Shown piece after piece: positions 11,252 to 36,024 of a stretch of DNA of 41,288 bases (position 1 is the stretch's first letter; the number at the start of each line of letters is the position of its first letter). Both the position numbers and the translations under genes were made by a program. The notes beneath the pieces are model-generated. The model was given only the letters and a program-made list of their open reading frames with translations, was not told the origin of the DNA and made no database searches. Where the stretch lies: assembly GCA_903926385.1 (NCBI GenBank), contig CAIYIS010000046.1, positions 1-41,288 of the forward strand, written 5' to 3'. Source of the stretch: an uncultured Bacteroidota bacterium (GTDB taxonomy: Bacteria > Bacteroidota > Bacteroidia > 2-12-FULL-35-15).

Positions 11252-11698
11252 ATGTCAACTCTGCCCTCCTTAAATTACCTATTGGAATTAAAAGACGAAT
11301 CGGGTTTTGTCAAATCTGCAGAGTTGCAGGAAATAGAGTATGGAAGGGTGCAGGAAGATGGTAATAACCTTTATGTGTGGGTTAACAATGAAAAGTTTAG
11401 TTTACCCAAGTCGCTCAAACAATTTATAAAATTTGCACAGCATCTCGACTTATATATAAGAGTTCACAGGAGTTATTTTGTAAATATTAAATATGTCGAC
11501 CGGCATTCTGCAAAGGAACTTAAACTACTATTAAAATCTGGCGGAGAAATAACCTGTACGAAAGAAGGATTGGCGCTTTATCTGGAAATGAAAAAGAAAC
11601 ACAACGATTCGAAAACCTGCAACGAAGGTACAAGCCACCATAGCTGTTTGGGTGCAGCTTGCCCAAATTTTAAAAACTGCAGGTCTAGAAAAAAGTAA
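11252..11698 (+). CDS. Stand-alone LytTR DNA-binding protein with Cys/His-rich C-terminal tail
   Basis: The product has 148 residues. Residues about 20-115 form a LytTR DNA-binding domain: EIEYGRVQEDGNNLYVWV, LPKSLKQF and the hallmark RVHRSYFVNIKYV at 70-82. There is no receiver domain and no membrane segment, so phosphorelay control is not evident. After residue 118 comes a tail that is not part of LytTR, with C123, H129, H130, C132, C137 and C143 (C-x8-C-x4-C-x5-C), then a basic end RSRKK. Four closely spaced Cys and two His suggest a metal or redox site; this is inference. It is a single gene facing the repeat-rich region. Confidence 0.88.
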   Translation: MSTLPSLNYLLELKDESGFVKSAELQEIEYGRVQEDGNNLYVWVNNEKFSLPKSLKQFIKFAQHLDLYIRVHRSYFVNIKYVDRHSAKELKLLLKSGGEITCTKEGLALYLEMKKKHNDSKTCNEGTSHHSCLGAACPNFKNCRSRKK

Positions 11699-12035: not shown

Positions 12036-12098
12036 AACTCCATTAAAAAAGGTGTGAACTCCATTTTTTTTGGTGCGTTCTCCATTTTCTTTTTCCGG
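12036..12098. repeat. Three degenerate 21-bp tandem units (aactccatt type)
   Basis: The word aactccatt (then ttctccatt) starts at 12036, 12057 and 12078, exactly 21 bp apart, each followed by an A- or T-run and ggtgtg/ggtgcg. The third unit is decayed after tccatt. It lies about 130 bp before the larger 21-bp array. No ORF with a start codon uses it convincingly. Confidence 0.7.
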
Positions 12099-12228
12099 GC
12101 ATTCTTTTCCGTTGTAAGTTTATATCGCAATTTCCATTCATCATCCGAATCAGAAAAAGCAAGTAATAACGTTCTTTAAAAGTCTTTTAAACGAGAAAAA
12201 GGGGTTGAGAAAAGAGAAAAAGCGGCAT

Positions 12229-12501
12229 TTGTACAAATCGTGTAGTGACTTGTACAAATTGTGCAGTGACTTGTACAAATTGTATAATGATTTGTACAAA
12301 TCGTGTAGTGACTTGTACAAATTGTATAATGATTTGTACAAATCGTGTAGTGACTTGTACAAATTGTATAATGATTTGTACAAATCGTGTAGTGACTTGT
12401 ACAAATTGTATAATGATTTGTACAAATCGTGTAGTGACTTGTATAAATTGTATAATGATTTGTACAAATCGTGTAACCATTTGTACAAAAGTTGTAACAT
12501 T
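12229..12501. repeat. 13-unit, 21-bp tandem array centred on the palindrome TTGTACAA
   Basis: TTGTACAA begins at 12229, 12250, 12271, 12292, 12313, 12334, 12355, 12376, 12397, 12418, 12439, 12460 and 12481. That is twelve exact 21-bp steps; only the 12439 copy is altered (TTGTATAA). The intervening 13 bp come in two forms that mostly alternate, atcgtgtagtgac and attgtataatgat, giving a 42-bp higher-order unit. Because 21 is divisible by three, five of the six frames are open across it, reading as heptads such as DLYKSCS/DLYKLYN (plus) and DLYKSLY/NLYKSLH (minus). Coding sense is therefore ambiguous. Two helical turns per unit would place every palindrome on the same DNA face. Confidence 0.95.
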
Positions 12502-12723
12502 TTAAAGAAATGGTGTTTTTGGGTTTTTAAATAAAAATGTACCAAATCAAGAAATTCAAAATGGAACGCCATTTTCCTTTTTTCGATAACAAAAAACGAA
12601 ATAATTGGCTTAAAAATTAACAAAACACAATGCAATCGGCATAACCCTCGCCTCAGTTATGAGGTTGCATCAATAAATAATAAATAACTAAAACAAAAAT
12701 TAACGGGGCAAAATAAAAACACA

Positions 12724-13389
12724 ATGAAACTAGCAGAAAAGTTACTTAAATTTCATTTCTATTATAAAGCTTTTGTGGCTTTTATAATAGCGCATTTTTC
12801 AGATTTGATGGTGAGCGAAGCTCAAAAAGACATTTTATCTGACGACTGGGACGACTGGGATGATAAATTTACAGCCTATACCACTCCCGACACGCACAAT
12901 ACACCAAGTATTTCCGACATCAATGCAGCCTACGAACTCTACGCTCCGCGAATGGAAGCGGTGAGAGTGCAAATTAGAGACAATACGGCCATTACACTTA
13001 ACGGTATCGAGATGTCGAATTTGAATATTAAAATGGTCGACAAAAACCCTACTAAAGTACTACCTCCTAATTACGCTCCATCCATCGGTTTGGTGTCGGT
13101 TGGTAGTCTAACTGTAAATTTGTTTGTGTTCGACCCAACACATACAGGAAGCAAAGCAAAACCTCCAGGAGCAAAATTTATTGGTTCAAAGGTGGCGTTC
13201 ACTGGGGTAGATGCAGGAGCACCTGCATTAACTGAGTATTCCACACGCGTACCCGAAGGAAAAACAACATTTCCAATTCTTTATTCGTCAGATAAAGTAG
13301 GCAAAAAAATGTGGATTATTTGCTGGTACATGAGCCCAACCGGAAAACCCGGTCCGGTAAGCGAAGCTTTCTCGGTGGTGCTTACGTAG
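12724..13389 (+). CDS. Hypothetical protein, unrecognised, with an Asp/Trp-rich linker
   Basis: The product has 221 residues. The N-terminal 30 residues are hydrophobic/aromatic (FHFYYKAFVAFIIAHF) but lack a typical signal cleavage site. They are followed by a curious DDWDDWDDKF stretch (about 40-49). The rest looks like a compact domain with a fibronectin-like strand pattern. It includes MEAVRVQIRDNTAITLNGIEM and a C-terminal VGKKMWIICWYMSPTGKPGPVSEAFSVVLT that resembles the last strands of an Fn3-like fold. I cannot name a family. It sits alone, directly after the 21-bp arrays. Codon use looks like that of its neighbours. It may be a cargo or accessory gene of that repeat locus, but this is only positional inference. 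Confidence 0.75.
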   Translation: MKLAEKLLKFHFYYKAFVAFIIAHFSDLMVSEAQKDILSDDWDDWDDKFTAYTTPDTHNTPSISDINAAYELYAPRMEAVRVQIRDNTAITLNGIEMSNLNIKMVDKNPTKVLPPNYAPSIGLVSVGSLTVNLFVFDPTHTGSKAKPPGAKFIGSKVAFTGVDAGAPALTEYSTRVPEGKTTFPILYSSDKVGKKMWIICWYMSPTGKPGPVSEAFSVVLT

Positions 13390-13447: not shown

Positions 13448-13658
13448 AAAGGTTTGGGGAAAAGAATTTAGAACAATTGAACAGACGAATAGTGAATTTT
13501 GAAGTGAGTTGCATCATTCTTAATTCAATTGTTCTATTGTTCAGTTGTTCTATTGTTAATTGAATATCCAAAAATCCTGCTCCGAAAGGGGTGGGATTTT
13601 TTTGGGGAAGTAGGTTAGGCGGAATGGCTAAAGACTTTTCTTTTTTATATAAATTCAT

Positions 13659-35716: not shown

Positions 35717-35814
35717 GAGAATTGCCTCAGGAAAAGGAATAAAAACTACCTTCTGTTCAATTTAAAACACTTTTTTTAATTAAAAGTGGGCAAAATATTA
35801 AAAATTAGCAGTTG

Positions 35815-36024
35815 CTAAGGTAATAGTTGGTTCACCAAATGTCGTCTTAGAATGTGCTAAGGTAGTATTTTGTCAGCCAAATGCTACCTTAGCACATTCT
35901 AAGGTAGTATTTCGTCCGCAAAATACTACCTTAAGAGTTACCAAGGTAATTTTTAGACAGCCTAGTATTACCTGGGAAGGTTCTAAGGTTACATTTTGGC
36001 AAAAAAAACAAACCTTAGCAAGGG
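35815..36024. repeat. Five 42-bp tandem units, each an imperfect hairpin (CTAAGGTAGTATTT arms)
   Basis: Units start at 35815, 35857, 35899, 35941 and 35983, an exact 42-bp step. In unit 2, CTAAGGTAGTATTT and AAATGCTACCTTAG pair at 13 of 14 positions around an 8-nt loop. Arms of neighbouring units also pair (CTACCTTAG-cacatt-CTAAGGTAG), so one half-site occurs every 21 bp with alternating orientation. Units 1, 4 and 5 have decayed more than 2 and 3. In one frame the units read as heptads (KVVFCQP, NATLAHS, KVVFRPQ, NTTLRVT). Confidence 0.93.

Follow-up and report, generated by a model that had tools for sequence, protein, structure and literature searches.

Among the described systems, the closest to the array reported here are the operators of LytTR proteins (those of LytTR regulatory systems, and those of CoxC and RcoM), which are described as 9-bp direct repeats with mostly 12-bp spacers, that is, with a 21-bp step (PMC6193735) or, for other LytTR operators, as three repeats at two-helical-turn intervals (PMC11347149). 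The array that we analyse shares this spacing and adjoins a LytTR gene, but the operators in those reports have two or three repeats (compared with 7-17 units in the arrays of the gene family described below) and are built of direct repeats, whereas the array units are locus-specific and tend to dyads.

Other systems resemble the locus in its layout. BrickBuilt, a minisatellite inside a MITE in Porphyromonas gingivalis, is a dispersed intergenic Bacteroidota element with a tandem array between flanks (PMC4596501), and the segment of about 630 bp that holds our array likewise has several genomic copies with shared flanks, at five places including the one analysed here. Nevertheless, BrickBuilt is described with a 23-nt unit belonging to one unit family, whereas the arrays here differ by locus and are fixed before a gene family; it is also described with terminal inverted repeats (PMC4596501). 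Of 36 inverted pairs in 12050-12800, the 25 longest all lie inside the array or touch it. In Beggiatoaceae and some Bacteroidetes, direct repeats of TAACTGA likewise form numerous tandem arrays between genes, in part close to start codons, and occur in few lineages, but their description gives one repeated 7-bp sequence instead of many different 21-bp units (PMC4679880). In the type III toxin-antitoxin system ToxIN, tandem repeats stand 5' of a small-protein gene (PMC8860590); unlike in the published system, no T-run terminator was found in the 12 family leaders, no strand-specific RNA signal is seen, and the downstream protein is modelled as helices with an FN3-like sandwich and not as a ToxN ribonuclease fold, none of 11 aligned family members having a PADLOC match. 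Finally, the Omega/ParB sites of pSM19035 are contiguous short repeats over promoter regions, where dimers bind cooperatively, but in the cited account they consist of one sequence, the 7-bp WATCACW heptad (PMC9499535).

Our array lies in a window of 41,288 nucleotides (the whole stretch of DNA that was analysed, from an uncultured Bacteroidota bacterium), between a LytTR regulator gene and the gene of an unnamed 221-aa protein (Table 1). The preliminary description of this DNA had reported the array, and was silent on the adjoining LytTR gene and on the downstream gene family. The array is a real, helix-phased DNA array, and one of a large class in its genome and in G299, a genome of the same taxonomic class. 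The reading that we favour, tentatively and with binding presumed from the layout, is that it may be an expanded, helically phased operator of the downstream gene, read by the LytTR protein; the main rival is a neutral helix-locked minisatellite.

Table 1. Features of the locus, with positions in the window.
Feature	Position	Strand	Basis
LytTR DNA-binding protein, 148 aa, candidate array reader	11252..11698	+	Pfam LytTR, E 5.9e-09
Segment with array and flanks	12135..12763		Whole length common to C52; shorter parts common to C83, C45, C7
Array, thirteen 21-bp units, TTGTACAA core in 12/13, 42-bp superperiod	12229..12501		Sequence and TRF
Leader, array to start codon	12502..12723	+	Four further copies elsewhere in the genome
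221-aa gene, multi-copy family, predicted three long helices then FN3-like beta-sandwich	12724..13389	+	Family search, model, fold matches

The units follow one another from 12229 at an exact step of 21 bp, equal to two turns of the double helix, until the last one ends at 12501; twelve of them are intact and unit 11 carries TTGTATAA in place of TTGTACAA, which confirms the earlier observation of thirteen palindromic units in strict register with one altered. TRF recovers this period (12.4 copies, 81% matches) together with a period of 42 (6.2 copies, 94% matches). The two alternating spacers previously claimed hold for ten of the 13 units (type A in units 1, 4, 6, 8 and 10, type B in units 3, 5, 7, 9 and 11), but units 2, 12 and 13 have spacers that differ from both types. 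The further claim, that the palindrome is kept while the spacers vary, draws weak support from the window array alone, with 1/8 palindrome columns and 7/13 spacer columns variable across units 1-12 (Fisher p=0.07).

Arrays of this kind were sought by autocorrelation (window of 63, at least 42 matches, periods 8-70) in 469 kb of the window's genome and 342 kb of G299. The scan found 31 non-coding-like arrays in the former, 24 of them with a period of 21, 42 or 63, and 69 arrays in the latter, of which 65 have such a period; block-shuffled sequence of the same genome sample yielded no array that passed the scan threshold. Of 40 stretches taken from further genomes, six were unreadable; the set contained 20 arrays, of which six have a period of 21, 42 or 63. 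A wider scan (larger samples, periods up to 130, near-multiples of 21 counted) gave 27 21-type arrays for G000 (486 kb), 81 for G299 (342 kb) and, from 220 kb each, 15 for G034, 10 for G120, one for G014 and none for G005. Within the family arrays a subrepeat of 10-11 bp was not seen, those lags being depleted. Several repeats were observed in passing: a second array in the window (35801-35976, period 42, 267 bp 5' of a 734-aa ORF) alternates between two kinds of palindromic unit, TACCTTAG...CTAAGGTA and GTATTTTG...CAAAATAC; short intergenic repeats around TTCAATTGTTCTATTG form a simple array of period 8 and 16 at 13524-13562; a 249-bp tandem repeat of about 10.6 copies (1-2782) is likely part of a large repeat protein; in G012, a further 21-bp array has units TTGTACAGTTGTACAA and TTGGAGAA (L019:2420-2640); and many of the contigs fetched from G299 (e.g. 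L110, L115, L117) start within an array, as though the assembly had been interrupted at it.

The general properties of the class are those on which the main rival draws. According to it, the array is a minisatellite without function of its own, whose step the duplication machinery would lock to two helical turns, and such arrays would accumulate in long non-coding gaps, of which the gene family would simply have some upstream; we consider this a serious, if doubtful, possibility. The 21-type arrays are intergenic, in all gene orientations, and make up 28% (G299 sample) and 9% (G000 sample) of the non-ORF DNA; most loci have units of their own, though some units are shared (in the window's genome and G299), and many arrays have uniform middles and degenerate edges. 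The same reading is favoured by the copies of the window segment, among which array length varies, the array being long and degenerate in C52 and C45, reduced to about five units in C83 and to one or two in C7. The right flank of the segment is repeated in these copies with 94% (C52), 80% (C83), 75% (C7) and 74% (C45) identity; in C52 and C45 the first codons of the downstream gene are kept and similarity is then lost. Among 35 congeners, the flank had matches in 7 genomes, all of them short and with E 1.4e-4 or weaker. Counting against the minisatellite, we know of no duplication mechanism that accounts for a 21-bp step, and the placement and symmetry of the arrays, treated below, weigh on the same side.

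Of the 36 genomes of the genus, 8 (among them that of the window) have relatives of the 221-aa protein, each with 4 to 15 copies. The family profile matches 14 times in G000, 20 in G034, 16 in G012, 5 in G023, 8 in G299 and 2 in G120, with no match in the array-poor G014 and G005. For the 11 aligned members, Pfam, NCBIfam and PHROG returned no match better than E 0.028 (none at E 0.001), a search for solved relatives by sequence gave a single match (E 0.13), and no relatives were confirmed in viral contigs. The predicted structure, a confident model (pLDDT 89.2, pTM 0.84), has its sandwich at the C-terminus, and the best solved fold matches, mostly FN3 domains at E 7.3e-5 and weaker, cover the sandwich only. 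In a hand-picked set of 20 proteins encoded behind arrays, four have an fn3 domain (L092, L162 and L196 above the Pfam cut-off, L103 below it).

At all 12 testable members (11/11 without the window's own), an array ends 79-360 bp before the start codon; these family arrays have 7-17 units and a period of 21 or a multiple of it, 41 in one case. The 12 members, from eight genomes, are the 10/10 testable ones of 12 loci plus L104 and L201; L188, whose gene is broken, and L192, which lacks upstream DNA, were excluded, and L046, found through its array, was not counted. By the same criterion, an array precedes 25 of 316 genes in G000 (8%), 14 of 158 in G034 (9%), 7 of 172 in G120 (4%), 44 of 219 in G299, 1 of 134 in G014 and 0 of 148 in G005, in a background that covers three of the eight genomes supplying the 12 members and has genes called by ORF length only. 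For genes with a gap of at least 250 bp this background is higher, at 28% in G000, 29% in G034, 27% in G120 and 56% in G299, which weakens the case for the operator; the contrast between 12/12 family members and 27-29% in three genomes argues against arrays that merely accumulate in long gaps. The preference for a binding platform over plain slippage, expressed in the preliminary description, holds up here, the placement of arrays before one gene family fitting such a platform better.

The position of the arrays seems to be retained where their sequence is not. Unit similarity beat all 20 shuffles in four of 45 member pairs, about two being expected: the margin over the shuffles is at least two bases for L184-L191 (74% protein identity), L193-L194 (65%) and L184-L185 (63%), and one base for L186-L194 (39%), and units are unrelated in other pairs at 58-66% protein identity. 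Array position and period thus seem to outlive unit sequence. The same comparisons bear on the idea that the operator is read by another protein, for example by the 221-aa protein itself, with each paralog on its own array. It would be consistent with the arrays that precede members without a LytTR neighbour (L104, L189, L194) and with the alike units of the few close paralogs (L184-L191, L193-L194, L184-L185), but the unrelated units of the further pairs at 58-66% identity do not fit it and the family has no recognised DNA-binding domain; we regard it as very unlikely.

Dyad symmetry is found in many units. Against a null with permuted columns and array similarity kept, circular dyad symmetry reaches p<0.05 in 9/26 arrays of G000 and 30/70 of G299, which speaks against a minisatellite without function; local palindromes of 8 bp do so in only 4 arrays of G000 and 11 of G299. 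Dyad symmetry at p<=0.05 was also found in 8/12 family arrays, in a test that sought the axis over two periods and its null over one and therefore leans slightly to significance, a flaw from which the column-permuted test on the G000 and G299 arrays is free. Arrays inside larger ORFs were left out, as were those with fewer than three units (dyad test) or four units (covariation). Covariation of symmetric positions about the consensus axis is modest (z 3.8 overall, 1.6 in G000 and 3.4 in G299), and z ranges from -2.6 to 1.9 with the axis shifted by 1 to 4 bases; placing the axis at best complementarity gives z 7.5, but this choice is biased towards the result, and only the consensus-axis value is therefore used.

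TTGTACAA as such does not stand out. A public collection has 18 stretches with three TTGTACAA at 21 bp (by their titles, 14 from Bacteroidota, 3 from Bacilli and 1 from Caldilineaceae); in the phylum sample the pattern is present in one of 395 genomes, the window's own, with no match seen for the reversed control. Four copies of TTGNNCAA at 21 bp are found in 6/295 genomes, and four copies of the reversed control AACNNGTT likewise in 6/295; the TTGTACAA core is thus one choice among many, and we reject it as a specific protein site. Of the binding platform proposed earlier, what survives is its helical phasing, the dyads that recur with other units and the placement before one family, but not a protein specific for TTGTACAA. 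In a Culturomica MAG, a family member lies directly 3' of the TTGTACAA array by which alone this MAG was found (L046:3163-4026), and the ORF of that member continues in frame into the array; each of the three TTGTACAA arrays of this MAG (L046, L051, L058) follows a gene at 16-26 bp from its 3' end, and these genes fall into one similarity cluster with a C-terminal WWSSSE...RC motif.

The arrays could also act as RNA. In such an RNA leader element the array would be transcribed in the 5' leader and work like a type III antitoxin or a riboregulator, and promoter motifs give this some ground. TAnnTTTG is a -7 motif of Bacteroidota; before ordinary genes it is found 39 times in G000 (7.0 expected) and 12 times in G034 (3.3 expected). 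In the 200 bp 5' of the family arrays it occurs 7 times against 1.5 expected, at 7 of 12 loci, a count that 0 of 200 shuffles reach (antisense, 1), and between array and start codon it is absent, where only 0.4 are expected. In 41 other arrays it occurs 19 times in the leader (2.4 expected) and 5 times 5' of the array (3.8 expected). Based on the enrichment 5' of the family arrays, these may be transcribed; the window locus, however, lacks the motif in the 200 bp 5' of its array, and promoter placement is thus a trend of the family only. Folding of the window array is also much stronger than that of shuffled sequence on both strands (z -6.9 and -12.0), but antisense strands fold equally well in many arrays. 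Wobble pairs are not in excess: in symmetric pairs of 58 unoriented arrays there are 47.3 G-T and 45.6 A-C mismatches (p 0.67), and on the sense strand of 12 gene-oriented family arrays 10.3 G-U and 9.9 A-C. Since A-C is as frequent as G-T, symmetry at the level of DNA is favoured over RNA hairpins. Rfam gave 27 matches at E up to 1, none at gathering score, and the 12 family leaders contain no hairpin of at least five perfect pairs followed by a T run (weaker hairpins fall outside this scoring). With a downstream protein modelled as helices and an FN3-like sandwich, the RNA leader is an unlikely explanation, and the structured RNA suggested at the outset has so far found no support.

A translated heptad-repeat peptide had been named as the alternative to binding. 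Five of six frames are indeed open through the units of the window array (1.6 expected), as had been stated, and an excess is also seen elsewhere: open frames average 2.1 in G000 and 2.9 in G299, where column permutation leads one to expect 1.5 and 2.1, and just 2 arrays in each have no open frame at all (6.1 and 8.1 expected). The copies of the segment nevertheless contain, in the stretches read, at least seven (C52) and at least four (C45) stops in each of the six frames, and several arrays in other genomes have stops in several frames. On the evidence of C52 and C45 we reject a peptide gene, and consider this reading extremely improbable.

The gene 5' of the array brings the argument back to the operator. 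Pfam finds no receiver domain in the LytTR protein, whose C-terminus (window 11621-11698) is a short tail rich in Cys, CNEGTSHHSCLGAACPNFKNC, of a kind that is unusual in transcription factors; the protein has no match on plasmids at E 1e-5. In the matching 5' gene Pfam recognises LytTR at L184, L186, L187, L191, L193 and the window, and not at L185 and L189. In four genomes (G000, G034, G012 and G023; 52 of 55 family matches, three short fragments being dropped), at least 7 of 52 family matches have a LytTR domain encoded on their strand no more than 2 kb 5', against 0.24 expected; the other 45 have no LytTR neighbour among the positions listed. Each of the three LytTR genes in the G000 sample has a 21-type array starting 137-956 bp beyond its 3' end, by a measure that finds one at 20 of 330 genes there. 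LytTR proteins as the cause of all arrays are nevertheless rejected, since their gene counts (two in the array-rich G299, 13 and 6 in the array-poor G014 and G005) do not track those of the arrays. LytTR makes a good candidate reader at the window locus and does not explain the class. The units are not matched by known LytTR site sequences (p 0.29 for 12 arrays combined, 0.065 for the window array); given that LytTR sites are diverse, this misfit leaves room for another specificity.

In the expanded operator that we propose, the array would be a cis-regulatory DNA element of the following gene, each 21-bp unit presenting the same face of the helix, and its most likely reader at the window locus would be the LytTR protein encoded just upstream. 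Given the published 21-bp step, thirteen units would make a greatly expanded LytTR-type operator, which might tune the helix-bundle/FN3 gene by cooperative binding. Units would turn over by tandem duplication, so that paralogs come to have different unit sequences at unchanged spacing and position. From an observed array with its period and dyads, from a gene family with an array before 12/12 members, and from LytTR linkage at some of them, we infer binding, which protein is the reader, and the direction of regulation.

The array and its gene family together look like a regulatory layout not previously described; for the terms searched, titles and abstract openings held no description of 21-bp-locked arrays or of their pairing with the gene family. 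On a wider scale, some Bacteroidota might possess a genome-wide system of 21-bp helix-locked arrays, each with a locus-specific dyad unit, in which period, symmetry and position are conserved and the sequence is free, and in which cassettes of an array plus a helix-bundle/FN3 gene, some with their own LytTR, multiply within genomes, although we hold this generalisation to be somewhat unlikely. Ordinary motif searches miss an element whose period and position are conserved but whose sequence is free. If the arrays are neutral, their strict 21-bp lock calls for a duplication mechanism that senses the DNA helix. If they seat cooperative regulators, an unnamed gene family would be tied to a candidate regulator, and the arrays would be naturally occurring operators of 7-17 phased sites in which site number can be related to response.
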